A stretch of DNA of 64,000 bases from positions 13,563,039 to 13,627,038 of the forward strand of contig NC_088297.1 of NCBI RefSeq assembly GCF_032854445.1, in the 5' to 3' direction. Of this stretch, positions 19,701 to 61,746 are shown piece by piece; the first letter of the stretch is position 1; every line of letters starts with the position of its first letter. Made by a program: the position numbers and the translations under genes. The stretch comes from Liolophura sinensis. Lineage: Eukaryota; Mollusca; Polyplacophora; Chitonida; Chitonidae. The notes below the pieces were generated by a model. It was given only the letters and a program-made list of their open reading frames with translations, was not told the DNA's origin and made no database searches.

Positions 19701-22700
19701 ACCTGTTGACCGACGGCTCGATTGTACGCCGACAAAGACTAATTACAGGTACTGATTGAGCAGGAAGGGTCTGCAGCAGGATAACAGCGTGGAAAACGAG
19801 ACGGTGGACTGTGCATCCCCATTCCGTTATTTATGTTATATAGTAGCGAGCTGAGATGTGCACCTTGCGGTCTGCCTAAGCTATTGCATAATCGTTAGGA
19901 TGTATAGGAAAATGATAGCGGGCTTTAACGGTCAGAAAGCACTGATGCTTCATTTGCCTCTCATCTTTTGATCTACCGAAATTTACAGCTGTCCCCACAA
20001 ATCAGCCTTATGGCAATAATAAAACGGCAATCATTGCAAGTGTGTAATTACTTTATTACGCCCACATAAGAGTGTATTTTAAAGACTATTTGATCGATTG
20101 TTACGATTAAATAGTAACTGGGGCACACCGAAATGGGACACTAAATGTTTAGTGAAAGAGAATACGACACATTAAATACAAATTAAAAGATAGCTCTGAT
20201 GTCAGCAGCAGAGTTAAACAATTAGTTTGACTTTTAGGTTTTAATGACTACTTGCAAAAATATATATGTTGTAAAAGTGCAAAATAATACCGAAACTTTT
20301 TCTTTCACCATTCACCCTGATTTCAGGTATTAAATGTATCTTTAAATGATCACCTATTGCTATTCATGGAATGGCCAAAGAGAGAAAGATGGCTAAACTG
20401 TGGGTTTAAATGCCTTTTATCACATTCCCGTTTTCCAGCGGTGAATGATTTGTGTTATAAGTGTATTAGTATTTTCGTCACCCGTGAGCCCCATAATTTC
20501 CATCAAATAAATATTTTGAATGAGTATATATTCTAACTGAAAACAAATGAAACCTCTAAAACACGGATAAATCGATATATGTTCAATAATATAATTAGAT
20601 CAAAGTGAAACTTTCTTCTACGGATAAATTTACCGCCTTCATTTTCGTTCAAATTCCGCGATAACAAACATCAAATAAGTGAACAAATAATAAAATAAAC
20701 GTGCACTCACTTCGAGGGAGTTGTTCAGCTTGTCCACATGGGACCCATTTGCCACCCTGGAATTTCCAGTGGTTAGGATCTGCCAGAACCATGTCAACAA
20801 ATACATTATACTGCTTCTGGGGGTTTAGTCCACTGAGACTGAACTGCAGAGTGGGAAACATTCGCCTGGAAAACATGAAAAATGTAGAAAATTTGGAAAA
20901 CAGTGCAACACAATGACCAATACCAACAGGCGAAAAAATGTACATGTAAATATTTAAAAAAAAAAACAACAAACATTTTATTTACCCACGAGAACGCATA
21001 ATCAGTAAATAAATTATTCCGCGCTTAGAATTTATTATTTACAACATTGTGTTTTTATATTTTCTGCCGCGGAAAATCATTTCTGATTTCGCATATAGTT
21101 CTGGATTCCTAAGAGAAGTCATTTTTCATATTTGTTTTATGCTATTTTCCATTTCCTGGGTTTGCCATTGTTTACGGTTGAAAAAGCCTGAAGAAAAAAA
21201 AATGCCAGTTTTAAAATACACAGTTATTGCTGGAAATAAATACGGTGAATATTTTCTCGTTTCTTTCCGATGTCTTTTTTATTATAGGATGTTTTCCTGG
21301 GTATTTCTTGCGTATACAAATAAGCGATAATGTACAAATGCGACAACAAGCCATTTGTTTTAATGTTACTTAGTGTTTATGTAAGTTTCTTGGTATTCGT
21401 ATTCATTGGTATTTCTTATCTTCTTAATCTGTTTTTCACCACGTCAGTCATTATTTCCCTGAAAATATTTTAGATTCAAAATATAAAAAAAAATTTTCTG
21501 AAACGCAAACATATTTCTCTCTTGAACTTACCGCCTCAGTCATAATGTTTACTTATACCATTATCAAGTACAGGTGTTAAAATATCGTTAAAACTTAAAC
21601 AGTGTTAACCAATGCTTAAATACGTGTGTTGTCAAATCAAATACATCTAAATCGGATTGAATACCATTAAAACCGCCAGTTGTTTATAGTGAAAACTTAA
21701 ATCAAATGTTATGGTAATTGCTCAGAAGTCCAGTACTGATCTTGTTCCCCGCAAAACTGGGGTTAAATGTATATTGTGAAACAAGACACGGAATGATAAT
21801 TTCTACATATTAGAACTCATACTTAGACTTCAAAGTGGTTTAGAAACTAGACAAACCAAACATTTCTTAGGAAAATATCGACATTAAAAGTTAGCGAGAA
21901 GGTGAAATTCCACTTAAACCAAGTATATTTTAGTACATAAGTAGATTTCAAAGGCACACAGATTATTATTTTTTTCACGTACTTTCAGTTCGGCTTTTGT
22001 AAGTAATAATGTTTAGTTAATATAAGTCTGGTGCAATAATTTGTTTGCAACAATGCTAGGTCGGGTAATACAACATTTAGCATTCGGAGTACCAATGTAA
22101 ATCTCTTGACACACGGAACAAAAGCAAATGAATTTTGCCTTGGTTGATAAACGGCGTCCTCATGTGTATGCTTAAGAACAATGCTTCGGATTTTAACATT
22201 TAATATTAGATATAACCTGTGATTATAACTTCAGAATTTGTAACTCACCTTCCTTGCTTTGTAATGATCATTTCTGTCGTATGTGCGTGAAATTTAACCC
22301 AAAGTTGGCGGTTGCAAAGAAAGACGCAGGCTCCGCTATTTTGATACTGACGGCCTTCGCTGTTCCGGGCTACGGGGGCCTGGTGCTGCTGAGGAATTGC
22401 TGCTGCAGGTGGGGCTGAGTAATATCCCATCCCTTCTTCCGGGTACCCCTGGGGCTGATAATAGTGACTGGCTGCAGACGATACCGGTACAGAGTTAGTT
22501 GACTTGTATTCGATCTTTACTGCCGCTGGGCCGTATTCAAGAGTCGTATAAGATGGCGGTGAGGAATGCCTCTCCAAGACGGGAGCGGCGCTATTGACCT
22601 GGGGTGGAGACGGATAACTGTACTGTGGGTAACCGTTCTGATGCTGGGGAGGTGGGGCAGAGTAAGTGGAATCCTGGGGTATCCCGTAGGAGTCGATGGT

Positions 22701-23039
22701 TGACGACGGACTAACTTCGCTTCCGTCATCTTCGTTGGAATCGTCCAAGGTAGACGCTTCTGGTCTGGCACGCAACCCGTCGGTGTACATGGCGTTTGCG
22801 GAACCATTGTCTTCCGTTGCGGAATATCCACAGTAATAAGGCTTGAGACTGCTCAAAGATGTATAGGTTTTGTTGGTGTCCCACGTGTTGCTCTCTTGCC
22901 TGGGAGGCGAAGAATGACCGACAGTGTCATAGCATACCGCAGTTTCTTGAGGCCGGGCTGTGTACGTCTGTAAGTGTTGAGACTCAGTTGCGACGTTGTC
23001 GTCAACTTTACCACAGTTTCCGATCTCCGTTGAAGACAT
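16668..23039 (-). CDS. tbr: T-brain/Eomes-type T-box transcription factor (six coding exons)
   Basis: Coding exons in transcript order: 23039-22249, 20865-20711, 18375-18260, 17958-17812, 17392-17331 and 16719-16668. All introns are GT..AG and the phases join without a break (2, 1, 0, 0, 2). The start is the ATG at 23037-23039, chosen over an upstream in-frame ATG because it follows stop-rich leader-like sequence and gives a normal T-brain N terminus. The protein has about 230 residues of Ser/Pro/Tyr/Gln-rich N terminus, then a complete T-box domain. Motifs include [68 protein letters not shown] and [17 protein letters not shown]. The wording of the domain points to the Tbr1/Eomes/Tbx21 subfamily rather than Brachyury or Tbx2/4/6. 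Such proteins bind T-site DNA in the nucleus and act in early patterning and neural development. As read, translation stops 16 residues after the last intron. Confidence 0.88.
17098..17290. repeat. 24-bp tandem repeat in the last T-brain intron
   Basis: About eight units of 'gattccagaggatatacagt' plus 'cact', 40 bp downstream of the exon 5 donor. One minus frame is open and reads as I-S-S-G-I-S-D-C repeats. That frame is not continuous with exon 5, which hits a stop right after its donor. Confidence 0.9.
17331..17392 (-). CDS. tbr: T-brain exon 5 (end of T-box)
   Basis: 62 bp; acceptor TTTTAG at 17393, donor GTAGGT at 17330. Encodes the C-terminal T-box helix that enters the DNA minor groove ([11 protein letters not shown]). 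Confidence 0.9.
17812..17958 (-). CDS. tbr: T-brain exon 4
   Basis: 147 bp, phase 0 at both ends; acceptor TTTCAG, donor GTGAGT. Encodes [11 protein letters not shown] to A-Y-Q-N-T-D. The sequence after 'VIEVG' (TSSPGDQK) is shorter than in vertebrate Eomes. Confidence 0.9.
18260..18375 (-). CDS. tbr: T-brain exon 3
   Basis: 116 bp; acceptor TTGTAG, donor GTAAGT. Encodes the [11 protein letters not shown] core and G-K-L-K-L-T-N-N-K. Confidence 0.9.
18376..20710. other. T-brain intron of 2.3 kb
   Basis: AT-rich, with no SINE recognised and no ORF of note. Its freedom from repeats, compared with the rest of the window, is unusual and may mark regulatory DNA. Confidence 0.6.
20711..20865 (-). 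CDS. tbr: T-brain exon 2
   Basis: 155 bp; acceptor TTCCAG at 20866, donor GTGAGT at 20710. Encodes R-M-F-P through the [15 protein letters not shown]-contact strand. Confidence 0.92.
20866..22248. other. T-brain first coding intron
   Basis: 1.4 kb, AT-rich, repeat-free by eye. No feature beyond the splice sites is supported. Confidence 0.6.
22249..23039 (-). CDS. tbr: T-brain exon 1 with start codon
   Basis: 791 bp. Encodes the disordered N terminus (acidic patch [11 protein letters not shown] near residue 100; Pro/Tyr/Gln-rich to about 230) and the first 30 or so residues of the T-box, ending in phase 2 at donor GTGAGT (22248). Confidence 0.9.
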
Positions 23040-23410
23040 TGTATTATAAATATAAGTGTAATCAATTACAGAATGTCCGGTTAAGTATGTTAACACTTTG
23101 AATCTGTGTACTTCTCACCTCGATGCGTTCAGCGTAGTGTAAGGTAGAAATCGCACTTTTGCACACCTCCTGTGATTATCACTTGATCGACTTGTCAGTG
23201 GCGGTTAGGGCTTCCCTTGTTACCAAATATCTAGCACTCAGTTCACGTTCTGTATCAAAAAGCACCAAGCGTTTAGCACTTTTGGCTTCTAATGCAAAAG
23301 CTGTTTTTCATGAGCCACGAAGTTTCTTTGCTGATTAATGTGGCTGTACAGTGGAGGACAGGCCAAGTCGATGTTTTTCAGACAGGTCCACATGCCTACT
23401 TATAAGGCTC
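23040..23410 (-). promoter_or_regulatory. Probable 5' leader and core promoter of the T-brain gene
   Basis: On the minus strand a TATA-like 'cttataagtagg' lies near 23398-23408, about 365 bp before the ATG, with no long ORF between. Transcription would start near 23375. Support is positional. Confidence 0.3.
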
Positions 23411-28960: not shown

Positions 28961-29206
28961 AACATAAGCTAGCATCCTTTATTGCGTCAAAACAGGTAAT
29001 CACTTTAAAAGATTAAATATATCAAACGTAGATTTTGTCATTGCTACAAATCATATATTCATATATGTATATATATCATATAAGATTTAGCTTTATTTTT
29101 TGGCCTAAAGCACAAATGAGCCAACAACATGGGAGTTTTGGGATGGAACTCTTTTGTCATTAGAGGTAAAAATTGCTACTGTATCAGGTGAATGCTCAGA
29201 AATGTT
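28949..29206 (+). repeat. Dispersed repeat F, left part (host of the array)
   Basis: Matches 37560-37793 ('aagctagcatccttta', 'gcgtcaaaacaggtaatcac', 'gctcagaaatgtt'). The match breaks at 29206, where the 444-bp repeat starts, and resumes at 36547. Confidence 0.8.
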
Positions 29207-29650
29207 GGCCTCGGACCCCCATTAATTTTCCATAAGCGACAATGTTAACGTCTAGCGCTGTAGCTCAGTCCCAAACATTCCGTGGCCAATAAGCTTTGGT
29301 GCATACCTGGCCCAGCCTGTGAGAAAGAAGCCATAAAAATCTTGACATGGGTTGACCGTCAAAATCTGGACCTTTCCATGCCGGCAGCTGGGAGGCGTGC
29401 CTAGCAACGCCAAGGGGACGTCACTCGCAGCCTCATCACTACCTCACACCTTGTGTCCTCTCACCCAGAATTTCAAACTTTCATCAATAAAGCTCATACC
29501 TCCTCAAAGTTTAGACAGTTTCCAGCATTTTAATACCAAGCATGCACCTGTGCACCAAAAATGGACGCCTGGGAGCAAAAAAAGACTTTATACCCTAAAA
29601 TTCACAGAACTACAACCGAAAAACGGAAGTTGTAATGGGGGTCTGTGTCC
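29207..29650 (+). mobile_element. 444-bp direct repeat, copy 1
   Basis: Starts 'ggcctcggacccccatta' and ends with the inverse-like 'taatgggggtctgtgtcc', so the repeat has short inverted ends around its direct-repeat body. It is identical but for a few bases to 32102-32545 and 36103-36546, all exactly 444 bp. TGTT precedes it at 29203-29206. It contains a 110-codon open + frame whose stop lies just past its right end (29352-29684). A diverged solo copy at 47227-47677 keeps part of that frame in outline. Confidence 0.9.
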
Positions 29651-30343
29651 TATCACACCAGCCAACTTTTTTCAAAATCAATGATTTTTGCACCACATAA
29701 TTCCTGACACTTCTGAACCTCACAGGCAAAATTAGGGCTTGATACATGCAGAAACTTTGGAGTTGGATGAATTCAAGTTGGGGTACCCCCATCTTGGACA
29801 TGTGTCTTTTTTTCAGGGTAAAATATCTCTGAAGGGTAAACTTTGAAGCTTTGCAGTGCATATACCGTTCAAGATATCTCCATCAGGTCAACTGCTTTGG
29901 AAAGACAAGATGTTTATCTGCAAGAAAAGTTAAAAAAATCACATTGACAGAGCACTTTAGACTTTTCAAAAGCAACCATTTAGAGAAATATACATTTTTA
30001 AGAAGACTTTTCTACTCAGAGCAGCTTTAAATATCAAAGTTACAAGCCAAAAGTGTCAAAGCATACATCAAAATATAGGCAATTTATCTGACAATTAAAT
30101 GTCAAAATATAAGACATTTACTTTAGCAACTACGTGAAAAAAATTGACTGACAATGTGGTAGGGGGTATCAAAGCAGATTGTCACAATTTTGGAACAATC
30201 ATTTGTGACCAAAATCAAAGCAAGAATAATGCCTCAAGGTGATGAAGACCTACTCACAGGCACTTTTTCAGTGGACAGGACTTAAGAAAAGACTAGTATC
30301 CCAGTTCCCCACTGAAACACATGATGAAACCCTTTAAAAGACC
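29651..30343. other. Non-coding part of internal region 1
   Basis: 690 bp between the 444-bp repeat and the transposase remnant, AT-rich, matching 32546-33220 of internal region 2 with a few small indels. No ORF of note. Confidence 0.7.
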
Positions 30344-30372
30344 ACCCACATGCCCCCTGGTCCGAGTATAAT

Positions 30373-31353
30373 ATGGGGAACGAGATTGGCGAGGGATTGG
30401 CGAGGCAAGGTGTTTTAGCCAAGCACGTAACCACGGACGGTGACTCCAGGTCAGCCAAGGGCGTGGAGGACGGCATCCGACTGGTCGAGCCACTGTGGGA
30501 GGTCGAACGGTTAGCAGACCCCACGCACCTTGGTAGATCCCAGTTCAAGAAATGTAACCAGGCTAAGTTCAGCGATGCCATGTTCGAAGGACAGGGCCGA
30601 ACGAGGGAAGCCAGGAAGAAAGCACAGAAGGTGTTGAGTCAGGATATTAAGGCCAGGTGTAGCTTGATATTTTCTCAACTTATGTCTTAGCACATTGGTG
30701 ACATGAGGAAAATAAAAACTTACCTACCCAGGGTTGTGGATGCAACGGTCAGGTGTTACGGTGGTGACTGTTCCAAATGCCACAGAAACAGTGTGGTTTG
30801 CTCCAGAGGGGAAACCAGCAGCTGGTGGGAGAGGTCCCTGTTTTTATCCACCAGTAAACTCTGCCCTTTCAACATGGATGACAACGACAGGAAACTATTG
30901 ACCCAAGTACTGCACATGAGGTTGAGCGAGACAGCCGTCGCCAGTCTCCGGATGAACACCAGCACTCAAAAGTGCGAAGCTGTCAACAGATCACTCAAGA
31001 ATGTAAACTACAGCAGAAATATGGAGGGAAGGGCGGCGTCCACAATCCACAGACTTAACAATGGCCAGGACAAGTCCACGGCTGCCAAACTCCAAGCTGT
31101 CAGCGCCAGTATTTCACTTAGGAGCGAGAAAACAGTACAACAGATTGAAAGGGTGAACCAGTACCACAAGGTTTATAAGAAGCGACAGTTAAGGGGAGAT
31201 CACTCTGCAATACGGCCAGAAAACTCCGAGAGCACATTGAGTACAGGCTTTCAAATCCAGAAGAGAAAACTGACTATGCCAAGGGATAACTGGACAGCAC
31301 CCCAACAGATCACACATACGCTAGATATTTGTAACCGCCAGTTTTGTATATAA
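30373..31353 (+). pseudogene. Mutator-like transposase remnant, copy 1
   Basis: The N-terminal two-thirds are missing: compared with copy 2, about 1.2 kb is deleted with the joint in 'cccaca' near 30345. Reading starts at an in-frame ATG (30373). T-T-D-G-D-S-R-S-A-K-G-V follows, the likely first catalytic aspartate region of a DDE-type enzyme. Next comes a 36-codon block that copy 2 lacks, then a TAG at 30688-30690. After the stop the same frame continues (30703) with C-Y-G-G-D-C-S-K-C, a cysteine motif, then T-Q-K-C-E-A-V-N-R and H-R-L-N-N-G-Q-D-K-S-T. A 4-bp loss near 31190 shifts the last 50 codons. I place it with the Mutator-like transposases common in marine invertebrates by these motifs; the exact family needs a search. 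Confidence 0.65.
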
Positions 31354-31444
31354 TTTGTCACTGCTGTTGTCGCTTATGAAAGAAATTAAAAAATGATAAC
31401 AGAAATTGAGCAAAATCTGAAAAAACATCTGTTATTTATTATTT

Positions 31445-31843
31445 TTAATGAGGGGAAACCAACCTGCTCAGTCTTAAATGCAGCATGCACCTTGCATACT
31501 GCCCATGGCCGAGACAGCGCCCTACGTTGCAGCAGCGCTGCCTGTTATTGTTAACACAGTGCGGTTCCAAGCTTATGTGGTCCACATTTACACAGCGCGT
31601 GTTGTGGCACACGTGTGAACAATCAAGCTCGGGATCTAAATGTGACAGCCGCTGTCTGGCCATATAAACAAGTCTGCTGATGTGTTTCTTCTTCCATCGA
31701 TGTGTGACGGGGTCTTCGTAGGAGGCAAGGCCATATCGACCATCCCTCATCAATGGTCCAGTCCACACTCGACAGGCTGCGTTTTCGCTATAAACACTGC
31801 AACTTTCAATTTTTGCAGCAATTTCTGCTCTGAACGTCTCCAT
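31445..31843 (-). CDS. His-Cys box (I-PpoI-like) endonuclease, intact copy
   Basis: 132 residues from the ATG at 31841-31843 (the frame extends two codons further upstream without another ATG). The core C-S-H-V-C-H-N-T-R-C-V-N-V-D-H matches the His-Me finger of the Physarum homing enzyme I-PpoI. H77 would be the general base and N98 the metal ligand, exactly 21 residues apart as in I-PpoI (H98/N119). Zinc site 1 would be C24, C79, C84 and H89; zinc site 2 C104, C110, H113 and C119. Upstream lies a small basic segment (R-W-K-K-K-H) suited to DNA contact. Such enzymes cut double-stranded DNA at long sites. Here the gene converges on a transposase, not on a group I intron. All metal and catalytic residues are present, so it may be active. 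It has no nuclear signal that I can name and no introns. Confidence 0.8.
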   Translation of the reverse strand: METFRAEIAAKIESCSVYSENAACRVWTGPLMRDGRYGLASYEDPVTHRWKKKHISRLVYMARQRLSHLDPELDCSHVCHNTRCVNVDHISLEPHCVNNNRQRCCNVGRCLGHGQYARCMLHLRLSRLVSPH

Positions 31844-32101
31844 TTTCAAGCGTAGGAATACTAGAACGTTTCATGTTGTTCATTTCAGGATGCCTATACA
31901 CATGCTACCCTACACGGAACAGCATTTTACCGATTTTTCATCAAAATGGATATTTTCAAAAAATGAATAGCCCCAAGAAGCTATAAAATGGCTCAATCAA
32001 TGCAAAACACATCACAGACATACCCACCAAAAATTATCAGGCTGCTGCAAAATCTAAGCGCATAGTGACAATTTTCACATTTTGGTGACTTCGTCAGTAC
32101 A

Positions 32102-32545
32102 GGCCTCGGACCCCCATTAATTTTCCATAAGCGACAATGTTAACGTCTAGCGCTGTAGCTCAGTCCCAAACATTCCGTGGCCAATAAGCTTTGGTGCATA
32201 CCTGGCCCAGCCTGTGAGAAAGAAGCCATAAAAATCTTGACATAGGTTGACCGTCAAAATCTGGACCTTTCCATGCCGGCAGCTGGGAGGCGTGCCTAGC
32301 AACGCCAAGGGGACGTCACTCGCAGCCTCATCACTACCTCACACCTTGTGTCCTCTCACCCAGAATTTCAAACTTTCATCAATAAAGCTCATACCTCCTC
32401 AAAGTTTAGACAGTTTCCAGCATTTTAATACCAAGCATGCACCTGTGCACCAAAAATGGACGCCTGGGAGCAAAAAAAGACTTTATACCCTAAAATTCAC
32501 AGAACTACAACCGAAAAACGGAAGTTGTAATGGGGGTCTGTGTCC
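32102..32545 (+). mobile_element. 444-bp direct repeat, copy 2
   Basis: Lies between the two internal regions. Preceded by 'cagtaca' and followed by 'tatcacacc', not by TGTT, so it is an internal junction of the array. Confidence 0.9.
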
Positions 32546-33403
32546 TATCACACCAGCCAACTTTTTTCAAAATCAATGATTTTTGCACCACATAATTCCT
32601 GACACTTCTGAACCTCACAGGCAAAATTAGGGCTTGATACATGCAGAAACTTTGGAGTTGGATGAATTCAAGTTGGACATGTGTCTTTTTTCAGGGTAAA
32701 AAAACTCTGAAGGGTAAACTTTGAAGCTTTGCAGTGCATATACCGTTCAAGATATTTCCATCAGGTCAACTGCTTTGGAAAGACAAGATGTTTATCTGCA
32801 AGAAAAGTTAAAAAAATCACATTGACAGAGCACTTTAGACTTTTCAAAAGCAACCATTTAGAGAAATATACATTTTTAAGAAGACTTTTCTACTCAGAGC
32901 AGCTTTAAATATCAAAGTTACAAGCCAAAAGTGTCAAAGCATACATCAAAATATAGGCAATTTATCTGACAATTAAATGTCAAAATATAAGACATTTACT
33001 TTTGCAACTACGTGAAAAAAATTGACTGACAGTGTGGTAGGGGGTATCAAAGCGGATTGTCACAATTTTGGAACAATCATTTGTGACCAAAATCAAAGCA
33101 AGAATAATGCCTCAAGGTGATGAAGACCTACTCACAGGCACTTTTTCAGTGGACAGGACTTAAGAAAAGACTAGTATCCCAGTTCCCCACTGAAACACAT
33201 GATGAAACCCTTTAAAAGACCACCCAGTTAGGCCCCCACCCCACCCCGCCCTCCTCCCCCATGACTGCTGATTGGCTGACCAGCTCACCATGCAAAAACC
33301 TCCCAGCACCATTGCTGTTGTCTCACAGCAGGTTATTACTCTGCACAGTCACATCAAAAGGTGTCACATTGGCATCTACAACATATAAACAGAGAGGAAA
33401 AAT
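32546..33403. other. Non-coding part of internal region 2
   Basis: Matches 29651-30343, then a G+C-rich 'cccccaccccaccccgcc' segment at 33231-33250 unique to this copy because the corresponding part of copy 1 is deleted. Confidence 0.7.
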
Positions 33404-35333
33404 ATGAATTTAACATTTCCAATCAGGCAGCCACCAAGTACACCTATATTGGCAAGTCTGACAGTTAACAAGGCAAACAATCTACCCCAAAACACCATGA
33501 AGGGAGACAGAAAGAGGAAACAGTCTAGATTTCAAGCTGGAAAGGCCCAGGATCGCTCAAATAACCTGTCAGCACTTCCAGACATGCTGAACCCTCTGCC
33601 TGGGTGTTCCTTGATGGACACAGATTTTCAGCCCAATCAGGAGGCTGTAAGAACACACCAGCCTGACACAAAGAGAATACAGCGGCCAAGACGGTGAAAG
33701 GTAGATTCCAGGGCTGGATCAGACAGAGATACACATGAGCGGGAATAGGCTGCTGAAGGAATGCGACTCATAGATATACAGAAAATGGTGTGCATATGGA
33801 ACAAAGTTATGCTTGAGCACAGTGAGACCAAGGACCACTGTCCACTGCCCAGGTTAGAGATAGCTGCAGAGAAAAAGTGGGGTTTAGCCTGGGCGTTCAG
33901 TTTTAAGTGCTGTGACTGTGACTATGTATCTGGCTTCCACAAATTCTACAAAGAGGTAGAATGCAACAGACCTGGCCAAAAAGCTGCGGCGGTGAACCGA
34001 GCTCTTCAAGTAGGCCTCCAGGACACACCAATGGGGAACACCCGAGCCAGACTCCTATTTGCAGCGATGGACGTGCCGCCTGCCACTCGTAGGAACATGA
34101 ATCGCACTGCAAACCATGTCGCATCTGCAATCGCAAAGCTGAACAGAGAGGATATGGCAAATAAGGTGGAAGAGGTAAAGGCATACAAAAGGCAAAGAGG
34201 AGAGGATGACAGCACAATAGATCTGGCCACAGACACTCGCTACAACAGCATTACCATAACCAGTCCCAAGAAACCGAGCCAGAATGCTTCACAAGCCATT
34301 TCCCTGGCTGTGGAGACATCAACAGACAAGCAATACATTGTCTCTGCAGCACTGAAGAATAAATTGTGTTGGACTGGGTCCTGGCTGAGAGGAAAAGGCT
34401 TCCAAGTAAAGTGCTCTGGAGGACACGAGGAGTGCACAGCGAACACAAACCCACATGCCTCCTGGTCCGAGTATAATATGGGGAACGAGATTGGCGAGGG
34501 ATTGGCGAGGCAAGGTGTTTTAGCCAAGCACGTAACCACGGACGGTGACTCCAGGTCAGCCAAGGGCGTGGAGGACGGCATCCGACTGGTCGAGCCAACG
34601 AGGGAAGCTAGGAAGAAAGCATAGAAGGTGTTGAGTCAGGATGTTAAGGCCAGGTGTAGCTTGATATTTTCTCAACTTATGTCTTAGCACATTGGTGACA
34701 TGAGGAAAATAAAAACTTACCTACCCAGGGTTGTGGATGCAACGGTCAGGTGTTACGGTGGTGACTGTTCCAAATGCCGCAGAAACAGTGTGGTTTGCTT
34801 CGGAGGGGAAACCAGCAGCTGGTGGGAGAGGTCCCTGTTTTTATCCACCAGTAAACTCTGCCCTTTCAACATGGATGACAACGACAGGAAACTATTGACC
34901 CAAGTACTGCACATGAGGTTGAGCGAGACAGCCGTCGCCAGTCTCCGGATGAACACCAGCACTCAAAAGTGCGAAGCTGTCAACAGATCACTCAAGAATG
35001 TAAACTACAGCAGAAATATGGAGGGAAGGGCGGCGTCCACAATCCACAGACTTAACAATGGCCAGGACAAGTCCACGGCTGCCAAACTCCAAGCTGTCGG
35101 CGCCAGTATTTCACTTAGGAGCGAGAAAACAGTACAACAGATTGAAAGGGTGAACCAGTACCACAAGGTTTATAAGAAGCGACAGACAGTTAAGGGGAGA
35201 TCACTCTGCAATACAGCCAGAAAACTCCGAGAGCACATTGAGTACAGGCTTTCAAATCCAGAAGAGAAAACTGACTATGCCAAGGGACAACTGGACAGCA
35301 CCCCAACAGATCACACATACGCTAGATATTTGT
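33404..35333 (+). pseudogene. Mutator-like transposase gene, longer but broken copy 2
   Basis: A single frame runs from an ATG at 33404 to the end of the family's C terminus at 35333, broken by in-frame stops at 33695 (TGA), about 33746 (TAG), 34622 (CAG to TAG; copy 1 keeps CAG) and 34685 (TAG, shared with copy 1). A 108-bp in-frame block present in copy 1 (30492-30599) is missing after 34597. Residues early in the gene are basic (K-G-D-R-K-R-K-Q). The middle (33761-34624) holds W-A-F-S-F-K-C-C-D-C-D-Y, R-N-M-N-R-T-A-N-H-V and the D-G-D motif. The end holds the C-Y-G-G-D-C-S-K-C cysteine motif. Unlike copy 1, the C-terminal frame is unshifted. It is not translatable as one protein as it stands. 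Confidence 0.65.
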
Positions 35334-35446
35334 AACCGCCAGTTTTGTATATAATTTGTCACTGCTGTTGTCGCTTATGAAAGAAATTAAAAAATGATAA
35401 CAGAAATTGAGCAAAATCTGAAAAAAACATCTGTTATTTATTATTT

Positions 35447-35844
35447 TTAATGAGGGGAAACCAACCTGCTCAGTCTTAAATGCAGCATGCACCTTGCATA
35501 CTGCCCATGGCCGAGACAGCGCCCTACGTTGCAGCAGCGCTGCCTGTTATTGTTAACACAATGCGGTTCCAAGCTTATGTGGTCCACATTTACACAGCGC
35601 GTGTTGTGGCACACGTGTGAACAATCAAGCTCGGGATCTAATGTGACAGCCCCTGTCTGGCCATATAAACAAATCTGCTGATGTGTTTCTTCTTCCATCG
35701 ATGTGTGACGGGGTCTTTGAAGGAGGCAAGGCCATATCGACCATCCCTCATCAATGGTCCAGTCCACACTCGACAGGCTGCGTTTTCGCTATAAACACTG
35801 CAACTTTCAATTTTTGCAGCAATTTCTGCTCTGAACGTCTCCAT
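35447..35844 (-). pseudogene. His-Cys box endonuclease, frameshifted copy 2
   Basis: About 98% identical to 31445-31843. One A is missing near 35640 relative to copy 1, which puts a TAG just before the His-Cys box. The zinc and catalytic residues remain in the shifted frame. Confidence 0.85.
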
Positions 35845-36102
35845 TTTCAAGCGTAGGAATACTAGAACGTTTCATGTTGTTCATTTCAGGATGCCTATAC
35901 ACATGCTACCCTACACGGAACAGCATTTTACCGATTTTTCATCAAAATGGATATTTTCAAAAAATGAATAGCCCCAAGAAGCTATAAAATGGCTCAATCA
36001 ATGCAAAACACATCACAGACATACCCACCAAAAATTATCAGGCTGCTGCAAAATCTAAGCGCATAGTGACATTTTTCACATTTTGGTGACTTCGTCAGTA
36101 CA

Positions 36103-36546
36103 GGCCTTGGACCCCCATTAATTTTCCATAAGCGACAATGTTAACGTCTAGCGCTGTAGCTCAGTCCCAAACATTCCGTGGCCAATAAGCTTTGGTGCAT
36201 ACCTGGCCCAGCCTGTGAGACCGAAGCCATAAAAATCTTGACATAGGTTGACCGTCAAAATCTGGACCTTTCCATGCCGGCAGCTGGGAGGCGTGCCTAG
36301 CAACGCCAAGGGGACGTCACTCGCAGCCTCATCACTACCTCACACCTTGTGTCCTCTCACCCAGAATTTCAAACTTTCATCAATAAAGCTCATACCTCCT
36401 CAAAGTTTAGACAGTTTCCAGCATTTTAATACCAAGCATGCACCTGTGCACCAAAAATGGACGCCTGGGAGCAAAAAAAGACTTTATACCCTAAAATTCA
36501 CAGAACTACAACCGAAAAACGGAAGTTGTAATGGGGGTCTGTGTCC
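36103..36546 (+). mobile_element. 444-bp direct repeat, copy 3 (right end of array)
   Basis: Same length and ends as copies 1 and 2; followed directly by TGTT and the right part of repeat F. The array therefore ends on a complete 444-bp repeat. Confidence 0.9.
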
Positions 36547-36760
36547 TGTTAGCCCACATTTGCCGATCATGTGACTCACGTTTTTACTTTATTTAGGAAC
36601 TTCTCAAGTTCACGAACGGTTCTCTCAATTTTCTCCATGGTTCTACTCTATCCAATTCCCTTTTCTGAAACTTCTTTTCAGGCGACCATTTCATAGTAAA
36701 TGTAATCAAAAGCATGCACGTTAGATAAAAAACACCTTCCCCTCTTAAATAGTTATATTA
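36547..36760 (+). repeat. Dispersed repeat F, right part
   Basis: Continues the match to the paralogue at 37793-38010 ('ggctcacg', 'aacttctca', 'ttttctccatggttc', 'gaccatttcatagtaaatgt'). Confidence 0.8.
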
Positions 36761-37559: not shown

Positions 37560-38010
37560 ACAGCGGTAACGTAAGCTAGCATCCTTTAAGGCGTCAAAAC
37601 AGGTAATCACTCTTGAAAGATTAAACATATCAAACGCACATTTTATCATTGCTATAAATTATATGTTCAAAATATATAGCTTTCTAGGTGGATTTAAAGC
37701 ACAAATGAGACAACAATAGTGCAGTTTTGAGATTGAACTCTTTTGTCGCAAGAGGTAAAATCTGTATTGTATCAGGTGACGGCTCAGAAATGTTAAGCAA
37801 CACCCACCGATCACCTGGCTCACGTTTTTCCTTTATTTAAGAACTTCTCACGTTCACAAGTTCACAAACAAATCAACTCCCAATTTTCTCCATGGTTCGA
37901 CTGCTATAAACAGATTCTTGTGAATTTTTTTTCAGTCGACCATTTTGTAGTAAATGTATTCGTCAGATGAAAATACCACCTCCTTTTAAATGAGACACAC
38001 GTTTATGTAA
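37560..38010 (+). repeat. Dispersed repeat F, uninterrupted paralogue
   Basis: Covers both flanks of the array in one piece. At the place where the array lies in the other copy it reads 'gctcagaaatgttaagcaac' with no insertion. It therefore serves as an empty-site reference. Confidence 0.8.
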
Positions 38011-41467: not shown

Positions 41468-58791
<17,324 letters not shown>

Positions 58792-61323: not shown

Positions 61324-61746
61324 GAAGACATAAAAATCTACGATGCCAATAGAAAAGAAAACTTACAGCACAGCAAAACAAGTGAAGACATAAAAATCTA
61401 CGATGCCAATAGAAAAAAACTTACAGCACAGCAAAACAAGTGAAGACATAAAAATCTACGATGCCAATAGAAAAGAAAACTTACAGCACAGCAAAACAAG
61501 TGCAGACATAAAAATCTACGATGCCAATAGACAAGAAAACTTACAGCACAGCAAAACAAGTGCTGACATAAAAATCTACGATGCCAATAGACAAGAAAAC
61601 TTACAGCACAACAAAACAAGTGAAGAAGTAAAAATCTACGATGTCAATAGAAAAGAAAACTTACAGCACAGCAAAACAAGTGAAGACATAAAAATCTACG
61701 ATGTCAATAGACAAGAAAACTTACAGCACAGCAAAACAAGTGCAGT
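61324..61746 (+). repeat. 60-bp tandem repeat, seven units, encoding a 20-residue repeat
   Basis: Units carry 'gacataaaaatctacgatgc', 'aatagaaaagaaaacttaca' and 'gcacagcaaaacaagtg'. Because 60 is divisible by three, units 2-7 stay in one open frame from 61403 to 61792 (129 codons; repeats contain I-K-I-Y-D-A-N-R and E-N-L-Q-H-S-K-T-S). The second unit lacks bases and shifts the first unit out of frame. No splice or leader sequence supports a gene; the opposite strand is also open over part of it. Confidence 0.9.

Follow-up and report, generated by a model that had tools for sequence, protein, structure and literature searches.

The window analysed here is a stretch of 64,000 nucleotides of the Liolophura sinensis genome (GCF_032854445.1, NC_088297.1:13,563,039-13,627,038; C3:13563039-13627038 in contig numbering). 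Positions 29207-36546 are occupied by an array of the form LTDR-INT-LTDR-INT-LTDR, that is, three direct repeats of 444 bp (LTDRs) with two internal regions (INT) between them. Each internal region holds the remnants of a transposase gene and, downstream and facing them, a nuclease gene. The features are the following.

29203..29206, no strand: left target site duplication TGTT; these 4 bases recur directly after LTDR 3 and occur once in a related empty site
29207..29650, + strand: LTDR 1, 444 bp, ends GGCCTCGGACCCCCATTA / TAATGGGGGTCTGTGTCC, inverted match 15/18
29651..32101, + strand: internal region A, 2451 bp, without 1227 bp that are present in B
30373..30690, + strand: transposase remnant A, middle part (TDGD, DPTH); PF20700 (Mutator), E=7.7e-16; runs to the TAG stop common to B
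30703..31353, + strand: transposase remnant A, C-terminal part (4-Cys motif, CEAVN); close to its end, a difference of 4 nt from B alters the frame
31445..31843, - strand: His-Me finger (I-PpoI-like) endonuclease gene A, open, 132 aa, core SHVCHNTRCVNVDHISLEPHCVN
32102..32545, + strand: LTDR 2, 444 bp, common to both units
32546..36102, + strand: internal region B, 3557 bp, without 108 bp that are present in A
33761..34624, + strand: transposase remnant B, N-terminal and middle part (DTRYN, CCHC, TDGD); PF20700, E=1.9e-57; ends at a stop private to B
34700..35335, + strand: transposase remnant B, C-terminal part (4-Cys motif, CEAVN), recognized by its motifs
35447..35843, - strand: His-Me finger endonuclease gene B, out of frame through the loss of 1 nt near 35640
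36103..36546, + strand: LTDR 3, 444 bp, inverted match at its ends 14/18
36547..36550, no strand: right target site duplication TGTT, matching the one on the left
37567..37961, + strand: relative of the flanks without the element; the joined flanks are 76% identical to it, and its empty site lies at about 37791-37794

When the window repeats are aligned pair by pair, they show 1, 3 and 4 mismatches, and the two internal regions show 22 mismatches over 2325 aligned columns. Fisher tests comparing the divergence of the LTDRs with that of the internal regions within the window did not show a difference (p=0.16 and 0.79). Every repeat has inverted ends of its own, with GG..CC at the tips, and the comparison of GGCCTCGGACCCCCATTA with GGACACAGACCCCCATTA gives 15/18 matches in the first two repeats and 14/18 in the third; among 200000 random pairs of 18-mers drawn from the window, a match of at least 15/18 was obtained once. 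The array as a whole is bordered on both flanks by TGTT. If the flanks are joined with a single TGTT they align to 37567-37961 with no gap at the join and a score of 74, to be compared with 65 for a doubled TGTT. The single join thus fits the related empty site, which indicates a single insertion site for the array, duplicated over 4 bp. A simple assembly duplication was also considered as the source of the array, and it is unlikely because the units differ by deletions in addition to the 22 substitutions, and because the flanks match the related empty site.

Elsewhere in the window, an older solo LTDR-like copy is located at 47227..47676 (-), with 84% identity to the array repeats and, by eye, no clear target duplication. 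An open frame at 22245-23093 (-) ends in a match to the beginning of the T-box domain (PF00907, E=2e-5, narrowly missing the cut-off) and may be exon 1 of a T-box gene. A retrotransposon remnant is seen as a reverse transcriptase match at 56689-57102 (+; PF00078, E=5.1e-10), and a tandem array of a 60-bp unit is present at 61324-61742 (7 copies, 95% matches). Rfam and tRNA scans over the window detected nothing.

We now consider the genes of the array, starting with the transposases, neither of which is whole. The two window copies combined give the motif order DTRYN, C-x14-C-x3-H-x2-C, TDGD, DPTH, 4-Cys motif and CEAVN; the roles of the residues are read from this order, CEAVN containing the presumed catalytic E. 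The 1227-bp loss in copy A takes the first catalytic D, while the 108-bp loss in copy B, which also has its own private stop, takes the DxxH motif (DPTH). A Pfam search with the C-terminal pieces of A and B returned no model above the cut-off. The two genes have a TAG stop in common, at 30688 in A and 34685 in B, and this stop is therefore older than the split of the two units. We also considered a short intron spanning this stop, which was rejected, since removal of the single GT..AG stretch identified by eye yields another stop and leaves the frame unrescued.

For the nucleases, the Pfam model PF05551 (zf-His_Me_endon) matches gene A at 31445-31849(-) with E=1e-7 and gene B at 35447-35767(-) with E=5.6e-6, the latter being at the cut-off. 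When nuclease A was compared with the PDB at E values up to 1, matches were obtained only to three I-PpoI sequences (E 0.012-0.016). The first-pass annotation of this DNA described two internal regions, each with a transposase and a facing I-PpoI-like endonuclease between 444-bp direct repeats. This layout is confirmed, with PF20700 on the transposases and PF05551 on the nucleases of both units. The gene pair is thus present, but in a damaged state, with both transposases broken and one of the two nucleases open.

The same annotation assigned the transposase to the Mutator-like (MuDR) group. A MuDR transposon that had acquired an endonuclease gene would account for the match to PF20700 (E=1.9e-57), a Pfam model that bears the name Mutator. 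That name, however, comes from the label of the model, and the 4-bp duplications and the ends fit Kolobok. MuDR elements have target duplications of about 8-11 bp, whereas those found here are 4 bp long. MuDR membership is rejected on the duplication length together with the ends, and we consider this origin highly improbable. The GG..CC ends, the CCHC motif after the first D and the Cys-rich motif between DxxH and E are, on the other hand, features that fit Kolobok as presented in the main text of PMC9587614. On the basis of its motifs, ends, duplications and architecture, the lineage of the transposase fits Kolobok.

The combination flagged at this locus is in fact the already published KolobokP, a Kolobok lineage described in 2022 by Kojima and Bao (Mob DNA 13:24, main text of PMC9587614), and the window contains a broken dimer of that kind. 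The combination is therefore not to be reported as new. What is added here is a genome with a young-looking family, many open transposase frames and natural nuclease-minus copies. In passages of PMC12750733, the 2022 paper is cited for Kolobok-like tandem lncRNA loci in bivalves.

The whole assembly (609 Mb, 632 contigs) was searched for relatives, which gave at least 152 nuclease matches and at least 144 matches to the transposase fragment, merged by hand to at least 108 nuclease places and at least 94 transposase places; for the LTDR, the best 40 of 2072 candidates were scored. Among the matches listed, the two genes face each other in the same order within 4 kb at 79 of the 108 nuclease places and 79 of the 94 transposase places, compared to 0.03 pairs expected at random positions. 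The remaining 29 nuclease places consist of 27 with no listed transposase near and 2 with a transposase arranged otherwise, and one of the remaining 15 transposase places, again among the matches listed, lies in a dimer on contig C12. The first-pass annotation had proposed a constant pairing of the two genes, while allowing that it might be accidental, with no co-occurrence beyond the array or no adjoining repeat elsewhere. In the same assembly the pairing holds, and the counts (79 pairs against 0.03 expected) rule out accident. Candidate solo LTDRs were also found, 22 of the 40 scored places (the best 40 of 2072) being without a listed gene match within 5.5 kb. Outside the assembly, genome contigs of prokaryotes yielded 18 pattern matches to the transposase, none of which was confirmed, and the nuclease gave no pattern match in viral contigs.

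A sample of 20 stretches, corresponding to 17 insertions selected for good transposase matches, was fetched. All 17 have LTDRs at both ends (the right repeat of L019 is incomplete, beside Ns), in agreement with the earlier proposal of both genes between 444-bp-like repeats. Apart from the incomplete repeat of L019, the LTDRs are 452-454 bp long, and the monomers are about 4.6 kb. An exact 4-bp target duplication is present in 12 of the 16 readable insertions and absent in 4, the chance expectation being about 0.005 per insertion; none of the 12 is TTAA, and the window has TGTT. The D, D, DxxH and E motifs are found in one open transposase frame in each of the 21 units of the 17 insertions.

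Of the 17 fetched insertions, 11 (L006-L016) share one 10-nt deletion in the core of the nuclease, which converts DCSHVCHNTRC into DCATTHAV (DCATIHAV in L012), followed by a stop. The His removed by the deletion aligns with the His of SHLCHNTRC in I-PpoI, which is H98, given as the catalytic residue in the main text of PMC9587614. A twelfth place with this deletion is L036 (C9:5853546), which is not one of the 12 listed frameshift-type places and where the sequence was read around the nuclease only, which brings the known places to 12 (L006-L016 and L036). L035 (C11:25178595), listed as a frameshift type, is without the 10-nt deletion and has another lesion near the same spot.

In all 11 fetched insertions of this lineage, the transposase frame is open from stop to stop (689-725 aa) and contains the D, D, DxxH and E motifs. 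The left and right LTDRs of each insertion show 0 or 1 difference over 452-453 positions, one pair having also a gap. Exact target duplications are present in 8 of the 11, and all eight are different from each other, which argues against segmental duplication as the way in which the deletion copies spread. The lineage thus spread after the loss of the nuclease, and a nuclease of its own is therefore unnecessary for each copy. These results indicate that the nuclease is unneeded in cis for transposition; supply in trans from elements elsewhere whose nuclease is open would be possible. The suggestion of the first-pass annotation that the nuclease opens target sites or helps excision is, as a per-copy need in cis, contradicted by the 11 insertions in which the catalytic core is deleted. 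The nuclease may be a parasite of the transposon, as the same annotation also suggested, or act in trans. We think it probable that a core-deleted lineage of this recently active KolobokP family still transposes, and that the nuclease, being dispensable in cis, must earn its keep in some other way, either in trans or by restoring or multiplying LTDR-INT units. A nuclease-core deletion lineage was not found in the literature searched, which included the main text of PMC9587614; that text does state that some families seem not to encode the nuclease, perhaps through mutation.

Another option is that the nuclease is a passenger, i.e. a selfish gene without function for the transposon. A lineage without the catalytic core at 11 sites or more would agree with this, and so would unit 1 of the C12 dimer, which is without the nuclease core. 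However, KolobokP is known from 7 animal phyla and most of its families encode the nuclease (main text of PMC9587614), which argues for a benefit, and among the matches listed the nuclease is kept nearby at 79 of the 94 transposase places. We therefore regard a functionless nuclease as unlikely.

Stop-free full-length nuclease matches number 33 rows, corresponding to 30 places, among the matches listed. For 12 open-core copies, pooled pairs give a pN/pS of 0.32, a value biased down by the selection of open frames. Eight of the 12 aligned open nucleases (L017, L018, L020, L025, L026, L027, L029 and the C9 array) are without 5 residues of the second zinc motif, one Cys among them, and these residues are kept in the window copy and in the deletion lineage. 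In L028 the nuclease match is stop-free, yet an Arg replaces a core Cys, which means that a stop-free nuclease is not necessarily functional.

Two further arrays were characterized. On C9 there is a tetramer (L001-L003, C9:31860400-31884399) with 5 LTDRs, 4 internal regions and the duplication AGGT. Its internal regions show 0 differences over 3679 bases between units, and with units that are identical the count could be off through assembly. On C12 there is the dimer already mentioned, with the duplication CAAT. Among the matches listed, 3 of the 30 stop-free nuclease places are in arrays (window, C9, C12), compared to 0 of the 12 listed frameshift-type places (79-80 residues) with a tandem nuclease neighbour, and the 11 frameshift-type places that were fetched whole have two LTDRs each and no more. 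The difference between 3/30 and 0/12 gives no sign either way of a relation between multimers and nuclease state (Fisher p=0.55).

These observations bear on the model of 2022, in which the nuclease drives unit multiplication: an LTDR is cut, repair from a sister or neighbouring LTDR adds or restores units, so that arrays would form from copies whose nuclease is intact. In each of the three arrays (C9 tetramer, C12 dimer, window dimer) one or more units have an open nuclease, the frameshift-type places show no tandem neighbour, and the pN/pS of 0.32, with the downward bias noted above, points in the same direction. The array counts, however, do not differ meaningfully, the 5 zinc-motif residues noted above are missing from the C9 and C12 nucleases, no cleavage site is known, and the same products would be obtained by plain unequal crossing over. 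We consider nuclease-driven multiplication possible, albeit doubtful.

Taken as a whole, the locus is almost certainly best explained as a decayed KolobokP tandem dimer formed by LTDR recombination, in which the nuclease is unneeded in cis for insertion. The sequence of events would be as follows. A DDE transposase, with an enzymology assumed from the family, would act on the short inverted LTDR ends and insert the element with the 4-bp target duplication that is observed. A monomer would have inserted first at the window site, and LTDR recombination, through an unequal exchange perhaps between two already differing alleles, would then have produced two units with a common middle LTDR, leaving the outer target duplication intact. 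Each unit has deletions of its own. The spread of the core-deleted lineage of the same family in the genome is the reason for regarding the nuclease as unneeded in cis for insertion. The nuclease may possibly restore or multiply LTDR-INT units, in line with the proposal made by Kojima and Bao in the main text of PMC9587614. The role of the homing-type endonuclease, a question raised in that paper, can be addressed in this genome both by comparison and at the bench. If the cis-dispensability is true, array formation can be compared between natural nuclease-plus and nuclease-minus lineages.

Finally, we compare the elements with known systems. According to the main text of PMC9587614, the LTDRs of KolobokP are about 450 or 660 bp long, each with inverted ends of 11-18 bp and RR..YY termini; the repeats here are 444 bp in the window and 452-454 bp in the fetched copies, with inverted ends matching at 14-15/18 and GG..CC tips. 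The KolobokP target duplications are given there as 3-5 bp with no strong target preference, and here we find TGTT in the window and exact 4-bp duplications in 12 of 16 insertions. The KolobokP transposase is described as a DDE enzyme with DxxH, a zinc motif between DxxH and E, and CCHC after the first D, all of which are seen here (CCHC in window copy B, 4-Cys in window copies A and B). The I-PpoI-like His-Me nuclease lies downstream on the opposite strand in both cases, here with the conserved His/Cys residues. The published solo LTDRs and (LTDR-INT)n-LTDR multimers have their counterparts in the candidate solos and in the window dimer, the C9 tetramer and the C12 dimer, and the fetched monomers of about 4.6 kb are within the range of 4,022-4,748 bp reported for autonomous KolobokP families of the Pacific oyster. 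The differences are that the window copy is a broken dimer and that the genome also contains the nuclease-core deletion lineage, absent from the main-text description.

A Kolobok-type transposase and RR..YY ends, as found here, are also present in Kol0, KolobokE, KolobokH and KolobokD, but in the main text of PMC9587614 LTDRs are described for KolobokP alone, the other lineages carrying KolX, a lambda-type exonuclease, RecQ, DEDDh or no partner. Kolobok at large, or classical Kolobok, has the target duplication TTAA, unlike the window and the 12 exact duplications. With the His-Cys box homing endonuclease I-PpoI, the nuclease has the core SH.CHNTRC.N..H...E....N in common, whereas I-PpoI resides in a group I intron and the present nuclease is encoded in a DNA transposon; 5 residues, among them a Cys of the second zinc motif, are, moreover, missing in 8 of the 12 aligned copies. 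Bacterial composite transposons likewise consist of two repeats with their own inverted ends around an interior (main text of PMC9587614), but in KolobokP the transposase is located in the interior, outside the repeats.
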